DNA of 64,000 nt from Lotus japonicus (lineage: Eukaryota; Streptophyta; Magnoliopsida; Fabales; Fabaceae), in NCBI RefSeq assembly GCF_012489685.1, contig NC_080045.1:66114722-66178721 (forward strand), given 5' to 3'. This document shows, piece after piece, positions 13,166-47,925 of this stretch (its first letter is position 1; each line of letters starts with the position of its first letter). The notes beneath the pieces were generated by a model. The model ran no database searches. It saw nothing but the letters and a program-made list of their open reading frames with translations, and was not told the DNA's origin. The position numbers and the translations under genes are program-made.

Positions 13166-16100
13166 TTTTTTTTTTTGAAGACAAAAGTAACCAAATATAT
13201 TCAAATCAATGAGAATCTACATCAGGAGAATCAGCAGCTAAGCTAAGTAAAATATCCACAGGTGGGTTATCCCACCAAGTACAATCTTTATATGTAAAAC
13301 TATTTGCTGCTAAAGTATGGACCACTCTATTAGTGCCTCGAGGTTCAAACATAAACTGAAAAAAAGAAAAATTCCTGGCTAAACCCAAACAATCTTGTAA
13401 CAACACAAACAGTGCAGGGAAACTCTGAGGCTCTGCATACGCATCCACCAGCTGCTTGCAATCTGAGGAGAAAATCACATCATCCAACCCCCAATCCACT
13501 ACCAAATTCAAACTCCACCTGAGACACAAAGCTTCAGCCAATAAAGGGTCCATCCTATAAGGGACATAATGAGCCGCAGAAGCCTGAAACTTGCCCCTTT
13601 CATCTCTTATCACCAGACCAAAACCAGTCCCTTCCTTCCCAGCCCACCCAGCATCAATATTCACTTTCAGTTTGCCCACCACAGGGGGAACCCACACAGA
13701 AGAAACCTGCCTACTCCCTGCAGTAGCAGCAGGAACTTGATGCTGCAACCATTCATTCCACAAAACCACAGCCATCTCAATAGTACCCACCCGATCTGGC
13801 TTAGCTTTATTAAACAAGCAATTATTCCGAGTCTTCCAAATGCTCCATAGCAGCATAACAAACAGTTCAAAATCCTCCGCTGGCAAAGCATTCCTTAGCA
13901 TGTTCACCCAATCACCCACACCACTACTGAAGCCACCCGATCTTAGAGCTAGAGGAGAAGAGAACCAGACCAATCTTGACCAACCACAAGATAAGAAGAT
14001 ATGAGAAGAAGATTCATCCACACATTCCCCACACAACTGACAGAAAGGATCCAAAAACACCTTCCTCCTCTTGAGACTATCTTGACAAGGCAAGGCATTA
14101 TTTACTAATCTGAACAAGAAATGTTGAACCTTTCTAGGCACCCTTAGCTTCCAAATGTACTTACTCCCCGAAAAACCCTTAGAAGAAGAAGCTTCTTCTG
14201 CCATATGAATCTGGATCAATCTAGAATATGCAGACCTCACAGAAAAAGAACCATGTCTAGTATAGTTCCAGATCAGCTTATCCTCACTTGGAACCCAAGG
14301 TAGAGGAATCCTCTGAACTAGAGCAGCCTCACTCTCATGAAGAACTCTGCCCAACAGATCCCTCTTCCACAACCTTGTGTCAGGGTCAATAAACTCCTCC
14401 ACACTAACATTCTCAGGAACATCCTTAACAGGACTTAGAATCCTACCCGACCCAGGTCCAGGAAGCCAAGCATCATGCCAAAAAGCAACTGATCGTCCAT
14501 TCCCCACCCTCCACCTTGAACCATCCTTCACCACATGCCTAACTGCACAAATGCTTCTCCAAGAGAAACTTGGCCTGAAACCAACATTAGCATCCATGAG
14601 AGAGCATCGTGGAAAATAGCGAGCTTTGAGGCACTTGAACATAAGAGAATCCTCCCTCTGAAGTAACCTCCACACTTGCTTAGCTAACAAAGCTTCATTA
14701 AACCTCTTGAGATCCCTAAAACTCAAACCCCCACAATACTTAGGCCTGCACAGATATGACCACCTCATCCAATGGATTTTCCTCTCCTCTTTTTGCTGAC
14801 CCCACCAAAAATTAGCCATAAGAGCTTCCATAGCATCACACACACCACTAGGCATCCGGAAACAGCTCATAATGTAAATGGGTATCGCTTGAGCTATAGA
14901 CTTTAGCAACGTTTCCTTACCGGCTCTAGACAGTGACTTCTCCTTCCACCCTTTCAATTTTTTTGCCACCCTCTCCTGCACATTCAAGAACACCCGCTTC
15001 TTAGATCTACCAAGAATCGTGGGCAACCCGAGATATTTGTCATGAGTCTCGACAGCCTTCACCCTCATCCTGTTCCGGATCTGTATTCTAACACATTCCT
15101 GCACATTTTGGCTAAACGACAACTCAGTTTTTTCAAAATTCACCCTCTGCCCCGATGCCTCTTCATACCTCTTGATAACAGCTAAAATACAATCAGCTTC
15201 CACTGTATTTGCTCTCATAAACAGCAAGCTATCATCGGCGAAGAATAAATGGGAAATAGCGGGAGCCCCCCTTGCAATTTTAAAACCATGAAGCTTAGAC
15301 AAAGTAACTTGCTCCTCAATCAGCCCAGCAAACACCTCAGCACACAAGATGAAAAGATAAGGAGACAAGGGATCCCCTTGTCTCAACCCCCTCTTTGGAA
15401 AAAACCAATCTCTTGGCTTTCCATTTAGCAAAATAGCATATCTCACAGAACTTGTGCACCTAAGAATGAGAGCCACCACATGTGTAGGGAACCCCATAGA
15501 AATCAGAACATGCCTTAGAAACTCCCACTCAATTCGATCGTACGCTTTTGACATATCCAACTTTAAGGCCATCCACCCTTTCTTCCCACCCACCCTCTTC
15601 TTCATGGCATGAAAAACTTCCATCCCAATAAGTGCATTATCGGTAATTAACCGACCCGGCACAAAAGCGCTTTGGGATTCCCCCACCAACTTAGGTAAGA
15701 TAACTTTCATCCTATTAGCTATGCACTTAGTAATTATCTTCATAAGAACATTGCACAAACTAATAGGACGCAAGTCCTTAGGGGATTGAGGCTTATTCAC
15801 CTTAGGAATCAAACAAATGAAAGTCTCATTCAACTCTGAGATTTCCCTCCCATTATTCAGAATTTCCAGCACATAACTTGTTATATTCCCTCCAACCAGT
15901 CCCCAATAGTGCTGATAAAACAATGCTGGGAGCCCATCAGGCCCTGGTGATTTCAGCGGATGCATATGATCAATGGCCTCTTTGACCTCCTCTTTGCTAA
16001 AAGGAACTCCCATAAAATCCATCATTTCCCTAGACAGCTTATGTCTGACTCTGGTTGAAGTATCCTGAACATCTTGAAGCTCAGAAGAAGAAAAAACCTG

Positions 16101-16921
16101 CTCAAAATGTTGCTGAACAATTCCAGCCACTGCCCTGTCCCCAAAAACCCAATCACCATTCTCATTCATAATCTTTTTGATCCTATTATGAGTCTGCCTC
16201 TGAGAAGCCTTTTTGTGAAAAAATGAGGTATTTTTATCCCCATCTTTCAGCCAAACTGCCCGTGAACGCTGCCTCCAATACAATTCTTCCTTCTGTAAAA
16301 GATCATTAAACTCACCCTGTGCAACCCTCCTCTTTGCAACATTCTCATGAGTGGCACTCATCTTCTCCAATCTACCTACCTCCTTCTCCTTTATCTCAAT
16401 CTGCTTCCTCAGACTACCCTGCTTTTTCCCAAAGAAAGTCAAAGCTTCTTGAATAGCTTTAACTCTCTCCAGGCAATCTGCCCCAGGTCTGAACCAAGAA
16501 TCATGCACCACCTGGTCACAACCATCAGTCTTTATCCAAGATTCCTCAAACCTGAACACCCTCTCACTCTTCTCACCTAATTCACCAGCCTCCACCACAT
16601 TAAGCACAGACACAGCCAGAGCAATATGGTCTGAACCATACCTTCCCAAATGAAATACAGAAGCTGATAAAGAAGACTCCAAGAAATCCTTATTTACCAA
16701 GCACCTGTCCAGCCTTTCCCTCACATTATGTTCCCCCTCTCTACCATTATCCCAAGTAAAAGGAAAACCAGAAAACCCCACATCAGCTAGGCCACACTCC
16801 TCCAACCCTTTCCTGAACATTTCCATATGTGCAAGATTACCAGACCTGCCCCCAGATTTCTCATTCAGCTCACAAATGAGGTTAAAATCACCCACACACA
16901 ACCATTTACCTTGATACTCTT
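13166..16921 (-). mobile_element. 5'-truncated L1-type LINE retrotransposon
   Basis: The element lies on the minus strand. Its 3' end is the T run at 13164-13176 (a poly-A tail) and its 5' end is at 16921. A perfect 17-bp duplication flanks it, as expected of target-primed reverse transcription. The 5' truncation falls inside the endonuclease domain, so ORF1 and the start of ORF2 are missing. The remaining frame has no internal stop across 3.7 kb, so the insertion is probably recent. Confidence 0.95.
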
Positions 16922-16958
16922 CCGGATCCTTATAAGTTATAATCACAAAACAAACCAA
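13206..16958 (-). CDS. LINE ORF2 polyprotein, truncated: endonuclease/RT/RNase H
   Basis: This is a 1250-codon open frame. Residues 1 to about 12 come from host flank and target duplication, not from the element. Next is the C-terminal part of an exonuclease/endonuclease/phosphatase domain (VGDFNLI; YGSDHIALAV at about 108-117). The reverse transcriptase spans about 320-620, with LKLDMSKAYDRIEW, GLRQGDPLSPYLF and the catalytic FADDSLLF (Asp575-Asp576). A zinc-binding RT-associated region with CQLCGE-type cysteines follows at about 930-1020. A C-terminal RNase H-like domain starts at NIDAGWAG (about 1100). Without the N-terminal half of the endonuclease it should not be able to mobilise itself. 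It overlaps no host gene. Confidence 0.93.
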   Translation of the reverse strand: MVCFVIITYKDPEEYQGKWLCVGDFNLICELNEKSGGRSGNLAHMEMFRKGLEECGLADVGFSGFPFTWDNGREGEHNVRERLDRCLVNKDFLESSLSASVFHLGRYGSDHIALAVSVLNVVEAGELGEKSERVFRFEESWIKTDGCDQVVHDSWFRPGADCLERVKAIQEALTFFGKKQGSLRKQIEIKEKEVGRLEKMSATHENVAKRRVAQGEFNDLLQKEELYWRQRSRAVWLKDGDKNTSFFHKKASQRQTHNRIKKIMNENGDWVFGDRAVAGIVQQHFEQVFSSSELQDVQDTSTRVRHKLSREMMDFMGVPFSKEEVKEAIDHMHPLKSPGPDGLPALFYQHYWGLVGGNITSYVLEILNNGREISELNETFICLIPKVNKPQSPKDLRPISLCNVLMKIITKCIANRMKVILPKLVGESQSAFVPGRLITDNALIGMEVFHAMKKRVGGKKGWMALKLDMSKAYDRIEWEFLRHVLISMGFPTHVVALILRCTSSVRYAILLNGKPRDWFFPKRGLRQGDPLSPYLFILCAEVFAGLIEEQVTLSKLHGFKIARGAPAISHLFFADDSLLFMRANTVEADCILAVIKRYEEASGQRVNFEKTELSFSQNVQECVRIQIRNRMRVKAVETHDKYLGLPTILGRSKKRVFLNVQERVAKKLKGWKEKSLSRAGKETLLKSIAQAIPIYIMSCFRMPSGVCDAMEALMANFWWGQQKEERKIHWMRWSYLCRPKYCGGLSFRDLKRFNEALLAKQVWRLLQREDSLMFKCLKARYFPRCSLMDANVGFRPSFSWRSICAVRHVVKDGSRWRVGNGRSVAFWHDAWLPGPGSGRILSPVKDVPENVSVEEFIDPDTRLWKRDLLGRVLHESEAALVQRIPLPWVPSEDKLIWNYTRHGSFSVRSAYSRLIQIHMAEEASSSKGFSGSKYIWKLRVPRKVQHFLFRLVNNALPCQDSLKRRKVFLDPFCQLCGECVDESSSHIFLSCGWSRLVWFSSPLALRSGGFSSGVGDWVNMLRNALPAEDFELFVMLLWSIWKTRNNCLFNKAKPDRVGTIEMAVVLWNEWLQHQVPAATAGSRQVSSVWVPPVVGKLKVNIDAGWAGKEGTGFGLVIRDERGKFQASAAHYVPYRMDPLLAEALCLRWSLNLVVDWGLDDVIFSSDCKQLVDAYAEPQSFPALFVLLQDCLGLARNFSFFQFMFEPRGTNRVVHTLAANSFTYKDCTWWDNPPVDILLSLAADSPDVDSH
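16922..16938. repeat. Right target-site duplication of the LINE (17 bp)
   Basis: Identical to 13149-13165. It marks the 5' end of the inserted element. Confidence 0.95.
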
Positions 16959-17189
16959 GAATATATTAGTAGTCTTAAAATATAACTTTATTATATGTAT
17001 GCATATGATAATTAAATCTTTAAAATATTAATTCACACGTGATGTGAATATATTTAAAATGTTAAAAGAATTTGATTCGAAAAATCAACTATATGTTACC
17101 ATGTGAGATATAAAAGAGACTGCATCACATTTTTAGAGATTGTGTGTGTGGAGTAGAAGAGTTTGGTATTTATCAATGTTGGACATGAA

Positions 17190-17600
17190 TTTTTGAAATT
17201 CTTGCCAAAGCTCAAACTGAAAATGCTGAACATGTTTGTGCGATATGCTATCATATATGGAGAGCTCCAAATCTCTTTTGCTTTGAGGGTAAGACTTTTG
17301 ACACATTTACCACTGCCTCATCTGCCTCCAAGAAGTTGTGTGAGTATCAACAACTTACACTTGGATTTTGCTCAGATTTCGCAGGTGATGCACCAGCTCC
17401 CAAAGCATGTTTGGCATCCTCCACCATCCAACTTCCTTAAACTCAACGTCGACGTCAACGTGTGATGAGAAAGTAGTGGTTGTTGCAGTTTCAAGTGATT
17501 GAGTGGACTTAGGGATGGATTTCCCTGAAGCTACGAGAATAAAGAAAAGTTTGAAGTTTGCTATTGAGAAATGTTTCTCACTGTACACGCAACAACAATA
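17190..17600 (+). pseudogene. Decayed retroelement RNase H-domain fragment
   Basis: The plus-strand reading PKHVWHPPPSNFLKLNVDVNV resembles the linker and first strand of plant LINE-type RNase H domains (W-x-PP-x(3)-LKLNVD). It is followed by a stop and a frame-broken KVVVVAVSS-like stretch. No intact frame remains. Confidence 0.45.
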
Positions 17601-17927
17601 AAAATCAGCAACCTTTCAATAGGGTAAATGTTAAAAATGAATTCCATTAGTGAAATCATTTGGCAGCAACAACTTGGAAACTCTCAAGTTTGAATCATTG
17701 ATTTCTCAGTGATATAGAACTGGTAAACCAGGCATAGGTTTTGGTTTCTTTCTATGGGAGGATGCAAAGCTTCAACGTCATTTGTTTTCCTCCTCTTTTA
17801 ATCCCAGATGTTGTTGAGATAACATAAATATGAAAGAGTGAGCATGGATGAGAGTGAGGAGGCTAACAAAACTCAAAGTTGTAGGGAGCCAAAGCTGCTT
17901 AAGTAATGTGTCTATGCAACTCACCAA

Positions 17928-17978
17928 GTCCCACATTGGTTATTCAGCAAGTAGGAGTAAACTGTTTGTGCTATATAA
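17928..17978 (+). promoter_or_regulatory. U-snRNA promoter (USE + TATA), U5 copy A
   Basis: GTCCCACATTG at 17928-17938 matches the plant upstream sequence element RTCCCACATCG with one change. TATATAA starts at 17972, exactly 33 nt after the USE. That longer spacing is the RNA polymerase II class; U6-type Pol III promoters are about 10 nt shorter. Confidence 0.9.
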
Positions 17979-18000
17979 GATGGATGAGTTTCATTGTGTA

Positions 18001-18127
18001 AATAACGGAGCTGTGAGTTATGCACAGAGCGAACTATTCTTTCGCCTTTTACTAAAGAATACCGTGTGCATGTCTCATTAAGCAGCATATGCCTATTTTT
18101 GGAAGGGTTCTCCTTATGGAGGACTCT
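18001..18127 (+). ncRNA. U5: U5 spliceosomal snRNA, copy A
   Basis: The conserved U5 loop I is present (CTTTCGCCTTTTACTAAAG at 18040-18058), closed by ATTCTTT/AAAGAAT and an outer helix TGCACA/TGTGCA. An Sm site ATTTTTGG lies at 18095-18102, followed by a terminal hairpin GGGTTCTCC-TTAT-GGAGGACTC. A plant 3'-box-like CAATATTAGTTCAT follows. U5 aligns exon ends in the spliceosome. The 5' end is set from the distance to the TATA box and may be off by a few bases. Of the three good copies this has the best Sm site and hairpin, so it is the most likely to be functional. Confidence 0.88.
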
Positions 18128-18139
18128 GCAATATTAGTT

Positions 18140-19236
18140 CATATTTTCAGTTCTCTATCTCCCTAATTAGTTGCATCCACTTTTGATGTAACTGATGTGG
18201 GAATGGAGAAGCAAAAAATTTCTCTGATTCAGCGACCTTAGATAGGAGGGAGTTCTTATGCTAATAACAGCTGCTTATAAAATCTGCGCACTGGTTGATT
18301 ATTTTTAAGCAATGTTTAATTGTTTCTCTATCATTCATTCAACAGATTGTTAGTTAACTTATGGATATGATTTATTGTTAGATCATAACCCTTCTCCGTT
18401 TGCTGCGCATCAAGTCTGAATCATTGATTTCTCAGTAAAATAGAACTGGTAAAGGTTTTGGTCTCTTCCTTGGGAGGAAGCAAAGATGTTGAGCTAAAAT
18501 AGGTGAATGAGAGAAAGTTAGCATGAATGAGAGATAGGGGGCAAACAAAACTCTTGAAGTCCCACATTGGTTCCTTTGTACATAGCAGTAATCTGTTTGT
18601 CCTATAAGAGGGAAGAGGTACCATTTACAAACCTACGAGATTATTTCTCGTTTAAGCAAGTTCGAGTCTTTGAAAGGGTTAAAGAGACGGACATGTGTAT
18701 GAGAAGTGATTATAAGAATATCACTTCTCACCCACTTCCCTAAACTTGCAAACAAAGAGAACCATACAATATGAGTTAAAATTTAATGGAATTTTAAAAG
18801 TCAAATATGATTCATTATATCTTTTCTTTGGGCAATTTTAATGAAGGGATATAATATATTTTAAATTATCCAGTTTAGCTTTGTGTTCCAAATTATAAAC
18901 AGAAAACAAATTACTATGGACAGTCATCAACAACCACCTAGAGATATAGAATGAATAACATAAGATTTTCGAAATGTTTGTAACAAAGTCTGTCAGGTAA
19001 TGCACTTTATTGGATAACCATGATACATTGAGAGACCTAAATGAGCTAAATGTATATCAAGAAGTGATCATAACCATTATCAGACTTCTGAAAGTAGTAA
19101 AACAAAACTTTATTTAGTTTATGGACTTATTTGCTTAGATAATACGTCGATATTAAGGAATTCTAACTTTACACCACTACAGTTAAATATGTGGTGTAAT
19201 CATGCACCATATATCTGCAAAATTACAATTTTTTAG
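18140..19236. other. Spacer with relic snRNA module
   Basis: AT-rich DNA containing the degenerate promoter module D (listed separately) and the 3' flank of the first P450. No protein gene is seen. Confidence 0.5.
18559..18608 (+). promoter_or_regulatory. snRNA promoter module D, body degenerate
   Basis: USE GTCCCACATTG at 18559-18569 and TATAAG at 18603, again 33 nt apart. The downstream sequence (GAGATTATTTCTCGTTTAAGC) is at best a heavily decayed U5. No loop I or Sm site is preserved. Confidence 0.65.
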
Positions 19237-21044
19237 CTAGAGATGTTGTCTACGAGTGATGGGAATCAAGCAGAGGTCATTTACTTTACTTAGAGTTAAC
19301 CCAAATGACTCAGTCATGTCGATTTCTTCATTCTTCATTCCATTGGGAAGCTTCCAATCAAAGTGGTAAAGTAATTTGGCGAGTGGCAGCTCTATGTTGG
19401 GTAAGGCAAATGCAATGCCTGGACATATCCTCCTTCCAGCACCAAATGGGAGATATTCAAAGTTTGTGCCTCTGAAATCAATTTGGCTATTGAGAAACCT
19501 CCCAGGTTTAAATGTCTCAGCTTCATCCCAATACTTGGGATCCCTTCCAATTGCCCACACATTGATATTGACCCTGCTCTTAGCTGGTACCTCATACCCA
19601 TTGATTTCACATCTCTCTCTACATTCTCTTGGAACTAAAAATGGTAAGGGTGGGTGGAGCCTCATGGTTTCTTTGATGACACACTTTAAGTATATCAATT
19701 GGTGCATCTCTGTTTCATCCACATCCCCCTTGGTATCAAACACCCTTCTTACTTCAGCTTGTGCTTCTTCCATCACCTTTGGATTCCTTACCATTTCTGA
19801 CATCACCCAAAGCACAACCTCTGAAATTGTTTCTCCACCGGCAGCGAACATGTCCTGCAAATAGGTTAGTAATATCTATTATCTAAATAGGCATGCATTT
19901 GTCTTTCACTTAGCCAATAACATGAAGTTCTTTGATTTCCCTTAAAAAATCTATCCAAGAACATAACAATTTGATTCGTTTTCGGTTATATAAGAAAAGG
20001 CAAACCTAGTGCTACAAAGCTCTCACTATGCAATTTCACATGACAACAAACTTACCATGACAACAAACTTACCGTTGCGCCAAGAGAAAAAAAAAAGATG
20101 TTTGAATTAATATATTTTACATTTTATAGACTAACCTGAATGACTGCTTTAAGATTGTCATCAGTCAAAGCATATTGATCCGGTTCCTGCTGCTCCTTTT
20201 GAAGCCTAAGAAGAACATCAACTAGATCTTCACTCCCTTCAGCTTCCCTGAGCCTGCTGCTACTCATTTCATTTCTGTGATCATCAATGACGTCTTGCAA
20301 TATCCTATCAACCTCTCTGTGCATTTTTTCCATTTTGACCTTATCCTTACTCATCCCTTGAAGCACTCCTAAAGAAGGATAGAGATCAGCAACACAAAAA
20401 CCTCCCATCAGACTCAATTGCTCCTCAATAGCTGATTTGAACACTTGATGTCTGTTTTTCTTCCCGAAAGCTACGCGCGCTACTATCCCATATGTCAGTG
20501 AGAAAATCTTCTCACTGAGATTAACAACTGATCCTTCATCACTAGCGGATATTGCTTTAACAATTTCTGACACCTCTTCTTCTCTTATGGATCGGAAGGA
20601 TTGTACACGCTTTGCGCTTAACATCTCCATAGTGCATATCTTTCGTAGCTGCCTCCAGTATTCTCCATATGGAGCCGAAGCTATGCCTGTGGCATTGTAA
20701 GAACATATTGTGGATAAAAGGGGGTTTGTCCTGTCACAAAAGTTAAGATCATGTGTTTTCATAACCAGTTCTGCAATTTCTGGTGAAGTGACAATGATGT
20801 GGGATACCTCTCCTAGTTTGAGGTGCATTAAGGGTCCATAATTGCTTGCCAAATTTCTGAAGCTGTGATGCGGCATCGAGCCTCCAATCTGGTGTAAGTT
20901 TCCTATGAGAGGCAGTGTCCATGGTCCTGGTGGTAAATTGGTGTTGGAGCTGCTAGAAGTTGATCTTTTAAGCAACTTGAATAAGATGATGAGAAAGAGA
21001 ATGAAGGAAATGGAGGAAATAGAGAAAGGGTGGTTAAGCTCCAT
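19237..21044 (-). CDS. Cytochrome P450, CYP71D-type, copy A
   Basis: Two exons, 21044-20136 and 19854-19237, with one phase-0 intron at the usual CYP71 position; 508 residues. An N-terminal anchor (residues 11-25) and proline-rich hinge LPPGP (37-41) point to the ER membrane. The I-helix motif is AAGGETIS (307-314), ExxR is KETMR (364-368) and the heme-binding loop is FGAGRRICPG with Cys447. Two motif positions are unusual: Ile313 replaces the expected Thr/Ser, and FKPGRF (418-423) has Gly421 where PERF has Glu. The ExxR-PERF triad is therefore altered. CYP71D enzymes oxidise specialised metabolites such as terpenoids and flavonoids; the substrate cannot be predicted here. The frame is intact. 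Copy B at 23471-25364 is its duplicate. Confidence 0.9.
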
Positions 21045-21900
21045 GGTGGTAACTCTAATATCTAATTAAGGATAGATTGGATCCTCTGCACTTTCAGGAA
21101 AATGTAGATGGTTTTTAAAGACAAATTTTTCTCTTGTTGGAAAGGGAAAAGACAAAACATTGTCAACCATAAACTAAACAAATATAGAAGATAATTCAGT
21201 GCAGAATAAATTCCTTGTCAAACAACCAATTTCAGTTTTCAACTATATAATGTAATGCATGTCCATGTGTTTGATAAGGACAAGCGTTGAAGTTAGATAC
21301 ATGGTGACACACACATATTACACTTCTGTGTAGCTTCAACGTGTTAGAATTGATTTTAGGAAAAATATAAATGAACCCTTCTTGTCTTTGACACTCATCA
21401 TGTCTCTTATTCTCAATTTCTTCTCTCTGTCTGGGGTTAATAATATCCTGTTCTTTCAGGCACTACCTCCTTCAACTAAAGACAGCAACGTCCATGTCAA
21501 ACAAGCAATTTTCAGTTTTCAACTATGTACAATTTCAATATGTTTTACTGTTCATATTTTATAAAGTAATTCAAGGAAATGTGTGGGAGTGATTACAATT
21601 TCAACATGTAAATCTTCCTAATTCTCACTGTAAACAACAACAATAAAAATCAGAAACCTATAAGTGGGATTACTGTTAAAAATGAATTCTATCAGTGATT
21701 AAAGAGGAATTCAACTGAAATCATTTAGCAGCAACAACTTGTAAACCAGGCATAGGTTTTGGTTTCTTTCTATGGGAGGATGCAAAGCTTCAACGTCATT
21801 TGTTTTCCTCCTCTTTTAATCCCAGATGTTGTTGAGATAACATAAATATGAAAGAGTGAGCATGGATGAGAGTGAGGAGGCTAACAAAACTCAGAGTTGT
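21045..21900. other. P450 promoter and duplicated snRNA 5' flank
   Basis: The first part is the promoter of P450 copy A and resembles that of copy B. From about 21720 it becomes the duplicated flank of U5 copy B. No protein gene is seen. Confidence 0.5.
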
Positions 21901-21945
21901 AGGGAGCCAAAGCTGCTTAAGTAATGTGTCTATGCAACTCACCAA

Positions 21946-21998
21946 GTCCCACATTGGTTATTCAGCAAGTAGGAGTAAACTGTTTGTGCTATATATAA
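21946..21998 (+). promoter_or_regulatory. U-snRNA promoter (USE + TATA), U5 copy B
   Basis: USE GTCCCACATTG at 21946-21956, then a TATATATAA run starting at 21990, 33 nt downstream. The TATA box has one more TA than in copies A and C. Confidence 0.88.
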
Positions 21999-22020
21999 GA
22001 TGGATGAGTTTCATTGTGTA

Positions 22021-22147
22021 AATAACGGAGCTGTGAGTTATGCACAGAGCGAACTATTCTTTCGCCTTTTACTAAAGAATACCGTGTGCATGTCTCTATA
22101 AGCAGCATACGCCAATTTTTTCAAGGGTTCCCTTGGGGAGGACTCTG
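22021..22147 (+). ncRNA. U5: U5 snRNA copy B, Sm site degenerate
   Basis: The 5' stem-loop I is identical to copy A, including CTTTCGCCTTTTACT. The Sm region is changed to AATTTTTTCA, so the G that normally ends the Sm heptad is missing. The terminal hairpin has shifted to GGGTTCCCTTGGGGAGGACTC. Sm-ring assembly is likely to be weak or absent, so this is probably a recent pseudogene or a poorly assembled variant. Confidence 0.75.
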
Positions 22148-22150
22148 CAA

Positions 22151-23470
22151 TATTTAGTTAAAGCTTAATTTATAAATTTGTATTCACAAAACTAATTTAT
22201 GTTGTTGAAATTTAACCAATCTGTGGCAATTGTAGTCACTCTAAAGGAGGCAGATTTTAATGCAAAATGCTTCGGACATATTCTTAACAAAGCTAAAGAT
22301 TTCATGGAAGGTTGCTCTCATAACAAGGTAAATGTCAAACATCCCGTCAATGAGTTTCTAAGCTTGTTCATATTTTAGTGATTTTAATGAAATGTGTGGA
22401 AGTGATTACCATTAAAACATGTGATGTAAATCAACCTAATTCTCACCTTACCCAACAATAAATATCAGCAACCTTTTAATTGGTTATTGTTACAAATGAG
22501 CTACATCAGTGATTACAGAAGGATCGAACTATAATCATTGAAAGTCTTAAGTCTGAGTCTTTGATTTCTCAGTGATATATAGAACTGGTAAACTAGGCAT
22601 AAAGGTTTTGGTCTCTTTCTATGGGAGGAAGCAAAGCTATGTCAACTGTTTCTTCTTGAATCAGAGATAATGAGATAAAATATATGAAAGAGAGAGCATG
22701 ATAAGAGAGAACACTAAGTGGACTAGATTGTGGGGAGCCAAAGCTGCTCAAGCTATCTGTGTATATGACTCATAAAGTCCCACATCGGCTATTTTGTAAG
22801 TTGCAGTAATCTGTTTGTGCTATAAGATGGGAGCGTTTTGTTCTATAAACCATACAGCTGTAAAGAATGTTGAAATATAGGATTATTTTTTATTCTTTTA
22901 AGCACTTTCTTTCTATTCAGCACAGCTTTCTGTTGTATTCAACAGGTGAGGAGTGGTGAAGAGAAAAAAAGTCTTTAACTTGCATCAATACAACAGGTGA
23001 GGAATGGTGAAGAGAAAAAAAAAAGCAAAGATGAGTTCTTAAGCTATAACTTAAGTCTAGGGGAAGCTTGTGAGAAGTAATTTTAATAAGGGTATGAGGT
23101 ATTTTAAAAAATTCCTCTAACACCTCTCATAAGTCTTCTCTTTTTTTCAAACAAGGATCACCCTGCAGTATTAGTTAAAATTAACAAATTGCTATGGACA
23201 TCAACCCCCTAGGGATATAGAATGATTAATCTTAAAAGATTTGTGAGATGTTTGTAACGAAGTCTATAATGTAATGAACTTTATTGGATAACCATGATAC
23301 ATTGAGAGCTAAATGTATATCAAGAAGTGATCATAACCATTGTCTCATTACAAACTACTGAAAGTAGTAAAACAAAACTAGTTTATGAACTAACTTCACA
23401 GTTCACACCAGTGAAGTTAAATATGTGGTGTAATTATGCACCATATATCTGCAAAGTTACTATTTTTTAG
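22151..23470. other. Spacer with relic snRNA module and AT-rich DNA
   Basis: It contains promoter module E (listed separately), a short tandem repeat of CAACAGGTGAGGAnTGGTGAAGAG near 22942-23015 and the 3' flank of P450 copy B. The segment 22238-22335 may be a decayed coding fragment but has no recognisable family. Confidence 0.5.
22777..22826 (+). promoter_or_regulatory. snRNA promoter module E, perfect USE
   Basis: GTCCCACATCG at 22777-22787 is an exact match to the plant USE consensus. TATAAG begins at 22821, 33 nt later. The expected U5 body is not recognisable downstream: only CAGCTGTAAAG and ATTCTTTTAAGCAC-like traces remain. Confidence 0.7.
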
Positions 23471-25364
23471 CTAGAGATGTTGTCTACGAGTGATGGGAAT
23501 CAAGCAGAGGTCATTTACTTTACTTAGAGTTAACCCAAATGACTCAGTCATGTCGATTTCTTCATTCTTCATTCCATTGGGAAGCTTCCAATCAAAGTGG
23601 TAAAGTAATTTGGCGAGTGGCAGCTCTATGTTGGGTAAGGCAAATGCAATGCCTGGACACATCCTCCTTCCAGCACCAAATGGGAGATATTCAAAGTTTG
23701 TGCCTCTGAAATCAATTTGGCTATTGAGAAATCTCTCAGGTTTAAAAGTCTCAGCTTCATCCCAATACTTAGGATCTCTTCCAATTGCCCAAACATTGAC
23801 ATTGACCCTGCTCTTAGCTGGTACCTCATACCCATTTATTTCACACCTCTCTCTACATTCTCTTGGAACTAAAAATGGTACTGTTGGGTGGAGCCTCAGG
23901 GTTTCTTTGATGACACACTTCAAGTATATCAATTGATGCATCTCTATTTCATCCACATTCCCCTTGCTATCAAACACCTGTCTTACTTCAGCTTGTGCTT
24001 CTTCCATCACCTTTGGGTTCCTTACCATTTCTGACATCCCCCACAACACAATCCCTGAAGTTGTTTCTCCACCGGCGGAGAACATATCCTGCAAATGGAT
24101 TAGTACCATCTATTATCTAAATTGGCATGCATTTTTCTTTCACACAACTAATAACATGAAGTTCTTCTATTTTCCTCCTAAAAGCTATCCAGGAACCTAA
24201 TAGTTTGTTTCTATTTTATTCTAGGTTATATAAAAAAAGGAAAACATGGTGCTATAAAGCTCCCGCTATGCGCGAGGGTTTAGGGAGGGGCTGGATCCAC
24301 TTTGTGGATCTAATGTAGGCTGTCTTACCTTGCAATTTTGCAAGATGCTGATTCCATGGCTCAAACTAGTGACCACTAAGTCACATGGCAGCAATCTTAA
24401 CGTTGTGCTGAGATACAAAATATGTTTTAATTGATACATTTTTCATTTTATAGGCTAACCTGAATGACTGCTTTAATATTGTCATCAGTCAAAGCATACT
24501 GATCCTGTTCCTGCTGCTCCTTTTGAAGCTTAAGAAGAACATCAACTAGATCTTCACACCCTGCAGCTTCCCTGTGCCTGCTGCTACTCATTTCATTTCT
24601 GTGATCATCGATGATGTCTTGCAATATCCTATCAACCTCTCTGTGCAGTTTTTCCATTTTGGCCTTGTCCTTACTCATCCTTTGAAGCACTCCTAAAGAA
24701 GGATAGAGATCAGCAACACAAAACCCTCCTGACAGATTCAATTTTTCCTCACTAGCTGATTTGAACACATGTTGGTGTTTGTTTATCTTCCCAAAAGCTG
24801 CGCGCGTTGTTATCCCATATGTCAATGAGAAGATTTTCTCACTGAGATTAACAACCGATCCTTCATCACTAGCAGATATTGCTTTAACAAGTTCTGACAC
24901 TTCTTCTTCTCTTATGGACCTGAAGGATTGTACTCGCTTAACAGCTCTATCGTGCATATCTTTCGTAGCTGCCTCCAGTATTGTCCATATGGAGCGAAAG
25001 CTATGTTTGTGGCATTGTAAGAACTTATTGTGGATAATAGAAAGTTTGGCCTGTCACAAAAGTTAAGGTCATGTGTTTTCATAACCTGTTCTGCAATTTC
25101 TGGTGAAGTGACTATGATGTGGGATACCTCTCCTAGTTTCAGGTGCATTAAGGGTCCATACTTGTTTGCCAAATTTCTGAAGCTGTGATGCAGCATCGAG
25201 CCTCCAATCTGGTGTAAGTTTCCTATGAGAGGCAGTGTCCATGGTCCTGGTGGTAAATTGGTGTTGGAGTTGCTAGAAGTTGATCTTTTAAGTAACTTGA
25301 ATAAGATGATGAGAAAGAGACTGAAGGAAATGGAGGAAATAGAGAAAGGGTGGTTAAGCTCCAT
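23471..25364 (-). pseudogene. Cytochrome P450, CYP71D-type, copy B, frameshifted
   Basis: Exon 1 is 25364-24460 (905 nt against 909 in copy A) and exon 2 is 24088-23471 (618 nt, same as copy A). Exon 1 has lost 7 nt near 24935-24939, just after RKICTIELLS, where copy A has AAGCG-CA-AAGCG and this copy has a single AAGCG. The frame breaks at about residue 145 and the normal frame resumes downstream in another phase. A 3-nt insertion elsewhere accounts for the rest of the length difference. Exon 2 keeps standard motifs: SAGGETTS, KETLR, FKPERF and FGAGRRMCPG. Unless a sequencing error is responsible, it encodes no full P450. Confidence 0.88.
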
Positions 25365-25621
25365 GGTGGTAACTCAGATATCTAATTAAGGATGGATTGG
25401 ATCCTCTGCACTTTCAGGAAAATGTAGATGGTGTTTAAAGACAAATTTTTCTCTTGTTGGAAAGGAAAAGGACAAAACATTGACAACCATAAACTTATCA
25501 AATATAGGAGATAATGCAGTTCAGTATATACTCTAGATTGATAATACTCTAGAGGATCCATGTCCATGTGTGTGATAAGGGCAAATGTTATCAAATATGT
25601 GGTGCTCTATTGTTTGAAATA

Positions 25622-25624
25622 TGA
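25622..25624. repeat. Probable 3-bp target duplication TGA, left
   Basis: TGA directly precedes the GGTTGTGTTTGGATG terminus and is repeated at 27351-27353 after the right terminus. A 3-bp duplication fits the PIF/Harbinger (Tourist) superfamily. Confidence 0.5.
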
Positions 25625-27350
25625 GGTTGTGTTTGGATGGGGGAATATTTGAGGGAAATGTAATTTTAGAGGGTATTTCAAATCCCTTCAATTAAAATAC
25701 CTTGTTTGGATATCTAATGTAGAGAATTTTCAAATTACTAGTAATTAAATGAGGTATTTTACTCAATAGAATTTAGGGTAATTGAAATCACCTCAAAATA
25801 GGAGGAATTTCAAATTCTTCATCTCTCCCTTAACCCTATCTAAATTCAGTAAAAAAAATTAATCTCGGCTAAAAACCCTAAAATCGGCCATAAACTCGAA
25901 AGTCAACCAAAAACTCAAAAATCGGCCCAAACCCTAAAAATTGGCCTGACACTAAAAAATCGGCCGAAAACAGAAAGATGGTCTTGAACCCTAAAAATCA
26001 ATCAGACTCTTAAAAATCGGCTGAAAACTCGAAAGTCAGCACAAAACCCTAAAAATTTGCCGATAACCCTAAGAATCGGTCGAAAACGTGAAAGTCGGCA
26101 TGAAACTCAAAAATCGACCCAAAACCCTAAACTCGGCTGAAAACTAAAAAATCGGCCGAAAACTCAAAATTCGGCCGAAAACTCTAAAATCGGCCCAAAA
26201 CCCTAAAAATCAGCAAAAAACTCAAAAATCAGCACAAAACCCTAAAAATCGGCCTGACACACAAAAATTGACCGAAAACCCAAAATCGGCTCATAACTCT
26301 AAAAATTGGCCGATAACCCTAAGAATCGGCCGAAAACGTGAAAGTTTGGCCGAAACTCAAAAATCGGCCCAAAACCCTAAAATCGGCCCAAAACCCTAAA
26401 AATCAGTCTAAAACCCTAAAAATCGGCCCAAAAACTCAAAAATCAGAACAAAACCTTAATATCGGCCGAAAACCTGAAAGCTGGCCCAAAACCCTAAAAA
26501 TGGGCTCGATTCTCAAAAATCGGCCGAAAACTCGAAATTCAGCACAAAACCCTAAAAATCGGCCGAAAACCCGAAAGGTCGGGTTTTAGGTTTTTTGGTC
26601 AATTTTTGAGTGTCGGGCTGATTTTTAGGGTTTTGTGCCGACTTTTGAGTTTTTGGACGATTTTTTAGAGTCGGGCAATTTTTAGGGTTTTCGGCCGATT
26701 TTTGAGTTTTCAGCCGATTTTTGGGTTTTGGCGATTTTTGAGTTTCGGGCCGAATTTCACGTTTTCGGCCGATTCTTAGGGTTATCGGCCAATTTTTAGG
26801 ATTATGGCCCGATTTTGGGTTTTCGGTCAATTTTTTAGGGTCGGGGCGATTTTTAGGGTTTTCAGACGGCTTTTGAGTTTTCGGCCGATATTTGAGAGTC
26901 ATGTCGATTTTTAGGGTTATGGGCCTATTTTTGAGTTTCGAGTCGACTTTCACGTTTTCGGCCTATTTTTAGGGATTTCTTGTCGTTTTAGGGTTTTGTG
27001 TCGACTTTTGAGTTTTCGGCTGATTATTGAGAGTCGGGCCGATTTTTAGGGTTTTCGACTGATTTTTAGGTTTTCGGCTGACTTTCGGTTTTTCAGCCAC
27101 TTTTTAGGCTTTTATGTCGACTTTTAAGGTTTCGGTCTATTTTTGAGAGCCGGGCTGATTTTTAGGGTTTTCGGCCGATTATATTAAGATAAAAACAATT
27201 TACCCAAACAAAGAATTTTACAATTGAGTGAATTTCAACATTTTATCCAAACAATAAAATTTGAAATTCAAGGGAATTCAATTGAATCATTTGAATTCCC
27301 TAGCATTTAAAATCCCTTGAATTTCTACAATCCCTCATCCAAACACAACC
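25625..27350. mobile_element. Tourist/Harbinger-like foldback element
   Basis: The ends are inverted repeats: GGTTGTGTTTGGATG at the left, CATCCAAACACAACC at the right. Subterminal sequence (GGGAATTTGAAATT/AATTTCAAATTCCC-like) is also inverted. No transposase is present. The interior is filled by the inverted minisatellite at 25850-27180. Non-autonomous members with GTGTTTGG termini are common in plants. The superfamily call rests on the terminal GG and the apparent 3-bp target duplication. Confidence 0.7.
25850..27180. repeat. Head-to-head minisatellite palindrome (AACCCTAAAAATCGGCCGAAAA units)
   Basis: From about 25850 to 26578 the plus strand repeats variable units of about 17-23 bp built on AAAACCCTAAAAATCGGCCG and AAAACTCGAAAATCGGCC. 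From 26580 to 27180 the same units run in reverse complement (CGGCCGATTTTTAGGGTTTT). The switch is the perfect inverted repeat AAAACCCG-AAAGGT-CGGGTTTT at 26566-26587. The transcript could form a long imperfect hairpin. Open frames across it are repeat-encoded and not genes. Confidence 0.9.
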
Positions 27351-27621
27351 TGAGGCTTTTGCTGTTAAGGGAATTGGCGAACCCAACTTATGAAAAACCT
27401 GTGCAGTGGAAGATCCATATTGATCATAGTGTATATCCTGATCCATTGGAGTTCTGTTCAAGCTGGAGGAATCGTTGCATATTGTGAATTTGCATGTCAC
27501 AGCAAGGTCTGTCTACAAATATGGTTTTGATAAAGGAAGGTAGAGTGAGTATGGATGGGAGATGAGTCTAACAAAACACTAGATTGTAGGGAACCAAAGC
27601 TGTTCATATGCAACTCACCAA

Positions 27622-27672
27622 GTCCCACATTGGTTATTCAGCAAGTAGGAGTAAACTGTTTGTGCTATATAA
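27622..27672 (+). promoter_or_regulatory. U-snRNA promoter (USE + TATA), U5 copy C
   Basis: GTCCCACATTG at 27622-27632 and TATATAA at 27666, spacing 33 nt, with sequence between nearly identical to copy A. Confidence 0.9.
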
Positions 27673-27694
27673 GATGGATGAGTTTCATTGTGTA

Positions 27695-27821
27695 AAGCAC
27701 GGAGCTGTGAGTTATGCACAGAGCGAACTATTCTTTCGCCTTTTACTAAAGAATACCGTGTGCATGTCTCATCAAGCAGCAAACGCCACTTTTTGGAAGG
27801 GTTCTCCTATGGGAGGACTCT
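27695..27821 (+). ncRNA. U5: U5 spliceosomal snRNA, copy C
   Basis: Stem-loop I is identical to copies A and B. The Sm region reads ACTTTTTGG and keeps the final GG, but has C in place of the first U after A. The terminal hairpin GGGTTCTCC-TATG-GGAGGACTC and the 3'-box-like CAATATTAGTTCAA are intact; the 3' box is the best match of the three. Probably functional. It lies outside the duplicated P450 unit, next to the foldback element. Confidence 0.82.
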
Positions 27822-28770
27822 GCAATATTAGTTCAAATTTTTATTATATTTTATTTAATAAGTCTCAGGGTGGTTTGTCTCTTAAGCCCAAGAGGCTGTT
27901 AGAAGTCACATTGTGGTTATGTTATAGAATTATTCACACAAAATAATTAGTAACCAAAGAGTAGATTGATTGGAAGCATCAATGGCAACTCACAATGTCC
28001 CACATCGTGCAGCCAAGAGTTGCATCCAAGTGCATGTGGAGAACAGAAAAAATTACTCAGATTCAGTACTTATATGAAATTTAATGAGTCAAGGCACATC
28101 TTGTTCAAAGTGGCTGGAATTTTTTCTATTGATCTAAACATGCAAATAGTATAGCTTAGAAAAACTAAGCAATGATTCAAATTTGTGCTCCCATTCTTAC
28201 TACTCTCTCATTCATCCTTATGAGTCTAGTTTGCTTACCACTAAACCAACACCACTTTGTTGGTATTTTTTTATGCGCGCATATTAAAAAAGGTGTAAAG
28301 AAGATGATATTTTTATGGTTAAAAGTGAAGATAGTGAATAAAAATAAAAATATTTTTTCAAACGCAATATACCATTTCTTCTCTCTTTATCCAAAGCAGA
28401 TAGTCATAATGCTGTAAAATTACCCAAGGAAGTTCAGCTCTCAGTAACATGGTTAGAAAAAAAACTCTTAACCATTGTGTTCTTAGAAGATTGTGTAAAT
28501 CTATCTAATTCTCACCGCATCCAACAGTAAAATCGGTATCCTTTTAATGGTGTTATTGTTAAAAATGAATTACATCAGTGATTACAGAAGGATTTATCTC
28601 TATGGAAGGAAGAAAAAGTTCAATGTTCATCCACTATTATCTTCCTCTTTAATCTGAGATGTTGAGATGAAACATATAAATATGAAAGACAGAGCATGGA
28701 AAAGAGAGGACACTGACAAGACTAAATTGTTTGGAGCCAAAGCTGCTCAATGTATGTGTCTATTCTACTA
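27822..28770. other. Spacer with an isolated USE-like site
   Basis: Contains an exact GTCCCACATCG at 27997-28007 with no TATA box 33 nt downstream. No gene is seen. The end of the stretch resembles the 5' flank of the other snRNA modules. Confidence 0.45.
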
Positions 28771-28776
28771 GAAACA

Positions 28777-28826
28777 ATCCCACATCGGTTATTTTGTAAG
28801 TAGCAGTAAACTGTTTGTGCTATAAG
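28777..28826 (+). promoter_or_regulatory. snRNA promoter module F, perfect USE
   Basis: ATCCCACATCG at 28777-28787 is an exact USE match. TATAAG starts at 28821, 33 nt downstream. Confidence 0.72.
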
Positions 28827-28839
28827 ATGAAACTGAAGA

Positions 28840-28900
28840 GCTGCGAAAATTAAACTATTCTTTGAAACTTCCAAGACCATCTCAGATTTTGTTTGCTCTA
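28840..28900 (+). pseudogene. U5 snRNA relic behind module F
   Basis: GAGCTGCGAAAATTAAACTATTCTTTGAAACTT aligns with the U5 5' region and the left arm of stem I (GAGCTGTGAG...GAACTATTCTTTC). The loop I core CGCCTTTTACT and the Sm site are missing. Confidence 0.5.
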
Positions 28901-29524
28901 CAACTTCCTCCACATTTACTTATGCATACATTGAGATGATTTTTATGCTATAGTTGATGGGAAAGTTGTAGAGAAAAAATTACTCTGATTCAATGATCTT
29001 GTGTAAGATAATAGAATATATGGGCTTAAAACATTTTTTTTTTAAATATACAAGGGATGAAAAATCACATCTCATTTATTTTACAGATTAAAATGATATT
29101 TAGCCCTTCTTATTTTGTAAAAGTTAGTTATATTTCTTTTATGTATTTGATGAGCAAAGTCACATCTTGTGGCTGGACTTTTCTCTGTTGAACTAAACAT
29201 ACAATTAACATAGCTTAGAGAAACTAATCACCAGACAAGAATACAAGGAAGTGATTCTTGATGAAAAAAAAGAAATTGATGACAAGAGTTTTTAACTTAA
29301 ATATAAACTTAGACAATCTGGCTTCTGAGAGCACAAACTAGTACATGTAATGGGGCTTGCCCATAAAAGAGGCTTAGCTTAGATGATTGATTTGACCCCT
29401 CATATTGTACATGTTTGGTTGCACGTTTGGAATCGACCACAAAATTACGTTAAAACACAAGCTACAATATGAAGCTTGTGCGCTGACAATACACATCCAA
29501 ATATCATGGAAGAGGCTTTGTTTA
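28901..29524. other. Intergenic
   Basis: AT-rich DNA between the snRNA cluster and the 3' end of the WD40 gene. The last 100-150 bp are probably the 3' UTR of that gene. Nothing else is seen. Confidence 0.5.
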
Positions 29525-32500
29525 TCACTGAAACCCTTCAACCTCAAAAACACGAGCTGTACCATCAATGGAAGCCGAGACAAGGTAATCCCGATTCGCA
29601 GAAAAAGAAAGAGATTGAATGGCATCAGAGTGGCCCCTGAATGTTCTTACACATTCACCAGAACGGCTATCCCACAATCTCACATTTCCATCAACACACC
29701 CGGTAGCTACATACAATGCACCAAGCCATGCCAAACATGTCACTCCATCCTGGCAACATGCAAAATTCATTTCATCAGTCATACAAATGAAAGTATAATT
29801 GCAACCAGAGTTCATTTTGTTTCTAAATACATAAACATGATACCAGATAAAGCAAGATTCTAACAAACCTCATGCTCACAAATGTTCCGGGATAAGGAGT
29901 GCTCTACATCCCAGATCATCAGTTTTTTATCCATGCCTCCAATTGCAGCCCAGGAATCACTATCACACAATTGTAAGGTACAAAATTCCAAGTCAGCAGA
30001 TCATATTAAACAAGCCATGTAATTATTGCATTGTTGAAATGATGTAGATACCTTGGTGCGAACCCAATACACTCAATGGAATCTGAATGAGAACTCAGGG
30101 TATTAACCACCTGTCAATCATGATACTCATGTTTCTTAGAACCTAGCATCAAGCTAAATTTATATGCTCAATAAAATTTGGAGCATGCAGAGGAAAATGT
30201 AACAAATAGCACAATGGTCAATGGATAAGTGATTAAAGTGTTTTGGTCTGGGCTCAAACACCAGTACTACATAAGCTACATTCTGCAACAACATTATTTT
30301 TCTAGAATATACATTTTCATGTGATAAATTCAAAACCAGTTTGGTCGACAACTTCGAGCTCATGTATTGCTAGCTCACAGAACCGCCAACCCAAAATTCT
30401 GATTAATCAAATTTCAAGGATCAATAAAGAAACTAATATCTCCACATATTTGAGCTGAGCATAATATGCCGTTCTTGATCCATAATGGAGGATGAGCAGC
30501 GACTAGTTTTTGAATTGAAAATCACTTAGGATAGTCTTGCTATTGTCACAAAAAAAATTCAAAAAGGCTAGTCTTGCTTTTAAAAAATTGTTGACTCAAA
30601 TTGTTGGAACTAACATTGGATAAATTGTTGGAACTGACATCGGATAATGTCATCCTTTTAAATGCTAAGATATTCGACATCAATCCCTGAATTAGAAGAT
30701 TTTATGATCAACTTTTGCTTTAAGCAACTATCTCTGACATATTAGTAGACTTTAAAAGTTGTAAAACTAAAATTAAAATCAAATGAGCCACAAACATTAT
30801 TCCAGACAGAACATCATACCCCCAAGACAAAAACACAAACCAAGACAAATTCATCTAAGAAAATAGTGCAGTAAATAGCAAAAGCAAAGGAAACACATAC
30901 TCTTCCTGTAGTAATATTTACAATATGAGCAGATCCATCCTTGGAACCAGTAAGAGCAAGGGTTGAAGTTGAACTTATTGCTAAGCATGTTAATCCCTCA
31001 GTATGGTATGGATGACCTAGAGAGAAAATTTGCAGGAACTGATTTTAAGCATTGCACAAACTGCAGTCTGTATTTTTTTCCTTTGGAAATTCCAGAAAAT
31101 CTATTGAGAAGTTTTTAAAAATAAATTATGGAGAAATTCAAGAACTTAGATAATATGAATTAGATCAATGAGTAATTGACAAAACTCATTATTGAACTAC
31201 AGAAAGCTAAATAAACTTTTGCAGCGCCGAAGCTTCTAGTAAAAACATTTGTAAATGAATAAGTAATACACCATCCACACTCTTGCATAAGAGGCAGGCA
31301 GAGGTGCTTTATGCACGGATAATGGAAGGAAAAGATTGCATGTCTTCTGATAGATGTAAGGAGAGGTGTTTCCAGTGTATAAAGCTTCCTACACTTATAT
31401 TGTAGTTTCTAAAAAAATATTAATAAAGTTAATAATAATTAGACTAGCTCATAAAAAGCAAAGACACTGTTAAGTGAAATTAACATACCCTGCACAACAT
31501 GAATGTTTTCTCCACTTCTTGGATTCCATATTCTCAAGGTTGCATCATCAGAACCAGTACATATAATTTTCCCTAAGGTACCAAGCAAAAGGAAATTCAA
31601 GAATGTAAACATACATTACGTAAATGATAGAAGTTAATAAAAGATGCACCAAGATGAAAAGAAATTACTACCATCAGGAGTAAAATCACCACAGGTCACA
31701 CTACTACCATGACCAGCAAACATATTAAGAAAGGCAGCATGATCGGTATTCCACATCCAAACTGTGGAATCCTCAGAACCAGCTAAGAGTATGTGTCCTC
31801 TTGGATGCCACCTGAGCCACTACGGGTTTCATGGCAACTAGTTTAGTAACTACTAGAGCAGGAAAGCTAGAAGATTTAACAATCTCATTCTCACCTCAAT
31901 GCCCCCTCCAGGACCTTCCAGTGGACCTTTCAGATTTCCAAATTCATCCCAGACTTGAACAATTCCATCTAGGCTTCCTGATGCAAGAAACTTCCCATCG
32001 TAGCTAAAAGCTAAACTAGCTATAGAATCTGTATGACCTGCACAGAATTAAAAAACAGACTCACCTGGACATTCAATATTGCAATGATCTTGACTATATC
32101 AATCCTCCTGTTGCACTTGTTCTAAATAGAAAAATATCGATCCACCAGTAGTAGCTTTTTTATCACGAAAATACCTTGAAGCTCAGAAGCCCAATCTCCT
32201 TGGCCAATCCTCCAGAAAAATCCTTTGTCATCACCACCCCCTGTTGCCACCAATGTCGCATCTGTTGGGCTACAGGCAACAGAGTATAGTTCCCCTATAC
32301 AAGAATCCAAGAAAGTATGGAAATATCACAAACTCCTCGCGAATATCTTACATATATATGATACTTGACTTCGATATATAGAAAAGGAACAGGAAAAAAT
32401 TATCAATTGGTTAATAGCACTCGTAACAGAATATGTGCCTACTTAAAATTCTGGAGGGTGTTGATTTTAACACCCCCACAACAATTTCCACCCCCTTTAA

Positions 32501-33021
32501 AGTAGTAATTTCATTAAATGCCCAATGTTTAAGGAATATGTTTGTGGTGGATGAGAATTGTTGGTGGGGGTGTTAAAATCGACACCCAATCCTGGATTTG
32601 AATTTAATCTAGCTGAAGACTCAGAAAGAACCAGGATGGCATAAGCAGAAACATAAACCAAACCAAAACGTAGCTTACCAGTATGACCAGTAAATATGTG
32701 TACAGAATCATCAACCTCATCTGAAATTGTTAAAATAACATTACTATCAATACACTGAAAAAATAATCTTAATAGTAAGCAGTTTGAACATAGAGAAAGC
32801 ATATTAATACAAGCCTGGAAACATTAAAAAATATTGAAAATTGTGTTTAGAAAGATTAACAGCAAGCTCATACCAACATGTTCGGTTTCAGAATCATCAT
32901 CAGCATCAGGAAGATCTTCATTGTCGAATGAAACTTCATGCATGATGTCAGACTCATCAAGGAACACTTCATTGTCATCATCTTCATCATCATGGACATG
33001 TGGAGCATTTGGGTCACTCAT
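29525..33021 (-). CDS. AAMP-like WD40 repeat protein
   Basis: Ten exons on the minus strand: 33021-32874, 32720-32679, 32294-32175, 32037-31895, 31819-31672, 31572-31489, 31016-30901, 30110-30052, 29959-29869 and 29749-29525. They splice to 1176 nt, 391 residues. The first 50 residues are very acidic (VHDDEDDDNEVFLDES), followed by about eight WD40 units, including HTGELYSVACSP, HTDSIASLAFS, GSEDSTVWMWN, GSDDATLRIWN, GSKDGSAHIV, GGMDKKLMIWD, GCVDGNVRLWD and SASIDGTARVFE. Acidic N-terminus, length and repeat order match angio-associated migratory cell protein, a conserved beta-propeller scaffold with a proposed role in ribosome biogenesis. Exon 5 is read from a GTAG acceptor so that WLRWHPRGH is in frame. 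Intron 2 carries a Mutator-type MITE. Confidence 0.93.
32447..32596. mobile_element. Mutator-type MITE with 9-bp target duplication, in intron 2
   Basis: The element is 32456-32587 (132 bp). It has inverted repeats GGGTGTTGATTTTAACACCC at the left and the complement of GGGTGTCGATTTTAACACCC at the right, each continuing into CCCAC-ACAATT. Flanks AATTCTGGA (32447-32455) and AATCCTGGA (32588-32596) form a 9-bp duplication with one mismatch, as expected of MULE-type elements. Confidence 0.82.

Positions 33022-37492: not shown

Positions 37493-47925
<10,433 letters not shown>

Follow-up and report, generated by a model that had tools for sequence, protein, structure and literature searches.

The window analysed here is a stretch of 64,000 nucleotides (nt) of the Lotus japonicus genome (assembly GCF_012489685.1, contig NC_080045.1, positions 66,114,722 to 66,178,721 of the forward strand), and positions are counted from its first letter. 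It contains three genes for the U5 spliceosomal small nuclear RNA (snRNA), named U5a, U5b and U5c, each followed by a second snRNA-type promoter that lacks a recognisable U5 body (b modules 1 to 3), and two cytochrome P450 genes on the opposite strand (Table 1). The locus is very probably a local array of ordinary U5 genes that arose by tandem duplication and has since been partly homogenised and partly decayed. No paper on L. japonicus U5 genes was found within the open-licence literature searched.

Table 1. Features of the U5 array and its surroundings in the window.
Feature	Position	Strand	Remarks
U5a promoter	17928..17979	+	upstream sequence element (USE) GTCCCACATTG, 33 nt, TATATAAG
U5a snRNA gene	18007..18127	+	Rfam U5 91.5 bits; fold z -3.08
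U5a 3' box	18129..18142	+	CAATATTAGTTCAT, one mismatch to CA(N)3-10AGTNNAA; read from sequence
b module 1	18559..18608	+	USE-33-TATA promoter, no recognisable U5 body
3'-box match 3' of b module 1	18767..18780	+	164 nt past its TATA (155 nt in U5a)
P450a	19237..21044	-	intact CYP71D10-like gene, 508 aa; exons 21044-20136 and 19854-19237
U5b promoter	21946..21999	+	USE, 33 nt, TATATATAAG
U5b snRNA gene copy	22027..22146	+	Rfam U5 88.0 bits; fold z -1.43
U5b 3' box	22148..22162	+	CAATATTTAGTTAAA, exact pattern match
b module 2	22777..22826	+	USE-33-TATA promoter; AGCTGT at 22856, then hairpin sequence
3'-box-like remnant 3' of b module 2	23160..23182	+	87% over 23 nt to U5c 3'-box region, E 0.06, weak
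P450b	23471..25364	-	P450a duplicate, exon 1 frameshifted; part of exon 1 7 nt shorter than P450a
U5c promoter	27622..27673	+	USE, 33 nt, TATATAAG
U5c snRNA gene	27701..27821	+	Rfam U5 89.2 bits; fold z -2.80
U5c 3' box	27823..27836	+	CAATATTAGTTCAA, exact pattern match
b module 3	28777..28826	+	USE-33-TATA promoter, no recognisable body
WD40-repeat protein gene	29525-29869	-
Tubulin-folding cofactor D gene	38094-45467	+
DUF716 gene	50414-51610	+

U5 genes and their promoters

Scanning the whole window with the Rfam covariance models identifies U5 (RF00020) at 18009-18125, 22029-22144 and 27703-27819, with all three scores above the gathering cut-off of 40 bits, and no other family reaches its gathering score. 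A scan of 15000-34000 at E<=5 gives no fourth U5 match. The invariant U5 loop I, CGCCUUUUACU, stands on a stem in exact form in 3/3 copies, and with its flanks (TCTTTCGCCTTTTACTAAAGA) it has three exact copies, where shuffles lead one to expect 0.01 even with up to three mismatches allowed. The loop has no match in public viral contigs, a set from which records of the window's own genome were possibly left out. The RNA starts, set visually at 2 nt ahead of the Rfam match, lie 79-81 nt after the start of the USE in all three genes.

The USE and TATA box form the pattern RTCCCACATYG-N33-TATA, which has six matches in the window (17928, 18559, 21946, 22777, 27622 and 28777), all on the plus strand and between 17928 and 28824, and none in 100 shuffles. 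The spacing, when measured again, is 33 nt in every module. Among plant snRNA genes this spacing marks those transcribed by RNA polymerase II (Pol II) and not Pol III, a rule for which Waibel and Filipowicz (in 1990) are reportedly the source. A first-pass annotation, made from the letters alone, had described three copies with the U5 loop and six promoters with a spacing of exactly 33 nt, which is that of the Pol II class, and the loops, the covariance models and the promoter pattern all bear it out. Its U5 genes begin 6 nt upstream of the RNA starts set here and end within 0-1 nt of ours. An additional exact USE (GTCCCACATCG) is found at 27997, about 175 nt 3' of U5c, with no TATA box within the next 49 nt.

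Downstream of the RNA, each gene has a sequence resembling the plant snRNA 3' box, whose consensus is given as CA(N)3-10AGTNNAA in PMC5079582. This pattern is common (62 matches on the plus strand of the window), and a match is informative only through where it lies. The layout of each gene is that of a plant Pol II snRNA gene, with the USE, 33 nt, the TATA box, a U5 RNA of about 120 nt and the 3' box. If they behave like known plant snRNA genes, they would be transcribed by Pol II and the precursor cut at the 3' box by the DSP1 complex, and the RNA would then gain its Sm ring and enter the U5 small nuclear ribonucleoprotein (snRNP). In that particle, loop I keeps the ends of the exons in place.

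State of the three U5 copies

The first 70 nt of the RNA are the same in U5a, U5b and U5c, and the differences are confined to the last ~50 nt, the part that by rule carries the Sm site, (A)AUUUUUG, and then a 3' stem-loop. In U5a the Sm heptad is the consensus AUUUUUG, and the 10-bp 3' stem-loop is perfect (last 25 nt, -14.8 kcal/mol). U5c has the Sm site ACUUUUUGG and a 10-bp 3' stem like that of U5a with a different loop (-13.7 kcal/mol). The Sm site of U5b is AAUUUUUUC, its 3' stem is bulged (-8.7 kcal/mol), and fold prediction on a longer 3' part favours another hairpin. Shuffles that fold as well as the real RNA number 0/200 for U5a, 1/200 for U5c and 24/200 for U5b. Judged by these features, U5a and U5c probably work, and U5b may be a decaying or failing copy.

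Each of the three copies has a blemish. The 3' box of U5a is one base off and is missing from the exact-pattern matches, the Sm heptad of U5c starts with C instead of A, and U5b deviates in both Sm site and 3' stem. These defects weigh against an array of ordinary U5 genes, as do two points taken up below, the unlike bodies of the b modules and the basis on which conversion is proposed. All three copies could be pseudogenes, with the working U5 genes elsewhere in the genome, since each deviates in its Sm site, 3' stem or 3' box. This is unlikely, given the shared first 70 nt, the intact loop I and promoters, and the perfect 10-bp stems that U5a and U5c keep despite differing loops. Such preservation is unexpected without selection, though recent conversion could also maintain likeness.

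The duplicated unit and its P450 genes

The duplicated unit consists of a U5 gene, the second snRNA-type promoter and a CYP71D gene in the opposite orientation. In a self-comparison of 13-36 kb, the 565-bp U5 block at 17575-18139 matches 21622-22159 (88%), and the P450 block (~2.3 kb) matches in two pieces, 18905-20031 with 23183-24271 (86%) and 20041-21208 with 24370-25528 (91%). The repeat spacing is ~4.0-4.3 kb. Unit III is represented by 27542-27841, which is 89% identical to 17835-18147, and its b module is also present. Up to 36000, the end of the comparison, no P450 copy is found past 25528 and hence none 3' of U5c, where the next gene found carries WD40 repeats. Pfam was run on 16 of the 35 listed open frames, so a P450 gene farther downstream is possible. 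The U5 and P450 genes had been described as interleaved; P450 genes do stand between U5 copies 1 and 2 and between copies 2 and 3, but none was found past the third.

P450a matches 'cytochrome P450 71D10-like [Lotus japonicus]' at every one of its 508 aa, and the other Lotus protein among the best 120 of 5499 matches is 73% identical to it. The domain PF00067 is present in P450a and in the pieces of P450b. The open frame of P450b shifts where its exon 1 is shorter than that of P450a, a frameshift that may come from an assembly error. The self-comparison blocks and the identity of P450a to the 71D10-like protein support the earlier proposal that U5 shares a duplicated unit with CYP71D.

The U5-P450 arrangement is an ordinary local tandem duplication. 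Since the segment that was duplicated holds both gene types, their pairing is explained, and the P450 genes would be passengers; no functional link between U5 and P450 was found. It is extremely improbable that the two are kept together for function, for example because U5 transcription or read-through regulates the P450 genes. The pair does occur twice, with U5b and U5c upstream of P450a and P450b, respectively, on the opposite strand. However, P450b is frameshifted, U5c has no P450 gene found past it, a foldback repeat of ~1.7 kb separates U5c from P450b, and tandem duplication suffices without any such role.

Uneven identity and proposed gene conversion

Identity between units I and II varies strongly along their length. 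Upstream of the U5 TATA box, 241 of 242 bp are identical. RNA nt 1-72 agree at 70/72 positions and the rest of the RNA, beginning at nt 73, at 42/48, and identity falls to 91/181 in the 200 nt past the gene, about the level of unrelated stretches. The P450 gene parts are 78-95% identical: 839/902 in exon 1 and 587/618 in exon 2 (Fisher 5e-6 and 4e-4 against the U5 upstream stretch), 217/277 in the intron and 163/190 in the 5' flank (6e-17 and 1e-9). U5a and U5c are identical at 59/59 positions from 15 nt before the USE to the TATA box and at 73/74 in RNA nt 1-74, and farther upstream (185 nt) they match at 96/163, with likeness still detectable back to 17835.

Because identity upstream of the U5 genes lies above that of the P450 gene parts, the pattern is most simply read as recent gene conversion, with tracts spanning the promoter and the 5' part of the RNA. 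Strong selection on the promoter without conversion is less likely, because U5c does not have an upstream stretch at that level of identity. The argument for conversion is one from identity, and promoter selection could have contributed.

The second promoters

The USE of each b module lies 631, 831 or 1155 nt after the USE of its U5 gene. The first-pass annotation counted at least three further modules of the cluster here; their USE and TATA box are indeed kept, but no U5 body is recognisable and they are most likely dead copies. None of the three matches the Rfam U5 model, even at E<=5, and the hairpin sequence of b module 2 has no significant similarity to U5. In a search for residual U5 in the bodies by local alignment to U5a, 40, 678 and 296 of 1000 shuffles scored at least as well as modules 1, 2 and 3, respectively, and the alignment of module 1 is out of register. 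With the alignment anchored at the TATA box, 78, 167 and 594 of 1000 shuffles were as good. Since the alignments to U5a are not significant, the bodies themselves give no sequence evidence of U5 ancestry.

Other RNA families were also considered for these modules. At E<=5, Rfam has 17 matches in 15000-34000 (three U5, 11 microRNA (miRNA)-type, two small nucleolar RNA and one SmY that overlaps U5a), and none of the 14 non-U5 matches reaches its gathering score. Three sub-cut-off miRNA-type matches fall on the b2 hairpin, at 22902-22973.

The case for U5 ancestry comes from upstream flank pieces, short remnants of 3' boxes and 3' flanks (E 0.001-0.06) and weak words in place. The 5' flanks of the b modules resemble those of the U5 genes over up to 400 bp: for module 2, 17593-18002 matches 22453-22849 (75%), for module 3, 17745-17982 matches 28593-28829 (76%), and for module 1 the likeness is in three short pieces (76-81%). 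On the 3' side, 18746-18783, which includes the 3'-box match behind module 1, is 79% identical to 23145-23182 over 38 nt (E 0.001). Behind module 3, 28972-28992 is 95% identical to the U5c 3' flank (E 0.001), and 28972-29000 keeps pieces resembling the 3' flanks of U5c and U5a. The words AGCTGT and AACTATTCTTT occur in place in b bodies, weakly and not significantly on their own. Most probably, the b modules are old genes of U5 type that have lost their body to deletion or overwriting.

The body of module 1 contains an 11-bp perfect hairpin at 18700-18730. That of module 2 contains a hairpin within 22902-23025 and a direct repeat ~51 nt apart (CAACAGGTGAGGARTGGTGAAGAG), and looks like inserted repeat sequence. 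Body stretches of 129 nt (module 1) and 121 nt (module 2) have fold z scores of -4.57 and -5.70, and the b3 body has -0.55.

The aligned 5' flank pieces of the b modules are ~70-86% identical to those of the U5 genes, and the bodies have no significant identity. Flanks that are alike and bodies that are not would be unexpected if the modules had simply decayed after duplication, because the body of the living copy is conserved and that of a dead copy is expected to be at least as similar as its flank. The body could have been lost through hairpin insertion (modules 1 and 2) or deletion (module 3), or the b flanks could have been converted from U5 flanks.

Alternatively, though this is quite improbable, the b modules could be conserved snRNA-type promoters that are still active and produce other short RNAs, with selection on the promoter and not on the RNA sequence. 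The 33-nt spacing is exact in 3/3, and over 51 nt from the USE the b modules match each other at 43, 43 and 47 positions and the U5 genes at 38-43. The b1 and b2 stretches fold better than 200/200 shuffles, a 3'-box match lies past the TATA box of b1 at a distance near that in U5a, and there is weak likeness between bodies 1 and 2 and between bodies 2 and 3 (equalled by 8 and 19 of 500 shuffles, respectively, uncorrected). On the other hand, bodies 1 and 3 are unlike (147/500), the weak 1-2 likeness takes in the 3'-box end, no Rfam match there reaches its cut-off, b3 folds poorly, and the b1 and b2 hairpins differ and resemble inserted inverted repeats. Likeness also extends to flank pieces that lie well upstream of the b promoters, so the promoters do not appear specially protected. 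We regard as very doubtful a related idea, that the second promoters are a kept class that fires without an snRNA body, giving short sequence-unconstrained Pol II transcripts next to the U5 genes, or that they act as donors or acceptors that keep the U5 promoters uniform.

Origin of the array

Under the preferred reading, decayed U5-type genes in an otherwise ordinary array, the ancestral segment would have held a U5 gene, a second U5-type gene whose RNA body has since been lost, and a CYP71D gene on the opposite strand. Tandem duplication of this segment would have built the array. Conversion may then have evened out the promoter and the first ~70 RNA bases of U5a and U5b, and a shorter stretch with U5c.

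The pairing of U5 with P450 genes had been called unusual, a view that is not supported by what is published for Arabidopsis. In the ASRG survey (PMC545797), 14 U5 genes are listed, all with USE and TATA box, a tandem U5 duplication (atU5.1 and atU5.1b) is described, and about one third of snRNA genes lie near protein-coding genes. Like the Lotus copies, atU5.1 and atU5.1b are same-strand U5 genes with USE and TATA box; the Arabidopsis genes lie ~3.6-3.7 kb apart. They are two, whereas the Lotus locus has three, each followed by a U5-type promoter without a U5 body. The Arabidopsis U1-U4 and U2-U5 clusters in that survey likewise bring several snRNA-type promoters near each other on a single strand. 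Those clusters pair different snRNAs 180-300 nt or <200 nt apart, and the Lotus partner promoter differs in having no recognisable RNA and in its greater distance from the U5 USE. Compared with plant Pol II snRNA genes as presented in PMC5079582, the Lotus U5 genes share the USE, TATA box and 3' box consensus, and the locus differs in its three promoters without a recognisable RNA and in the one-base deviation of the U5a 3' box. The Lotus locus is of the same kind as the Arabidopsis tandem U5 genes, with one more copy and promoter relics.

Annotation based on proteins readily overlooks snRNA genes. This locus is a compact case of U5 copies arising, being homogenised and decaying next to one another, and is of some interest for how snRNA genes stay alike and get lost; views of splicing and of P450 biology are unaffected by it. 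RNA reads could be assigned to individual copies by the bases in which their Sm sites and 3' stems differ.

Neighbouring repeats

A LINE-type retrotransposon (long interspersed nuclear element) lies ~1 kb from U5a, with a 1273-aa frame at 13206-17027 on the minus strand that has reverse transcriptase, RNase H-like and zf-RVT domains. The foldback element between P450b and U5c spans ~1.7 kb (25624-27351). It has miRNA-type Rfam matches below cut-off, the best being MIR8562 with 61.5 of 211 bits. Its terminal inverted repeats start with AGGTTGTGTTTGGATG, and its interior has two inverted halves built of 19-20 bp units.

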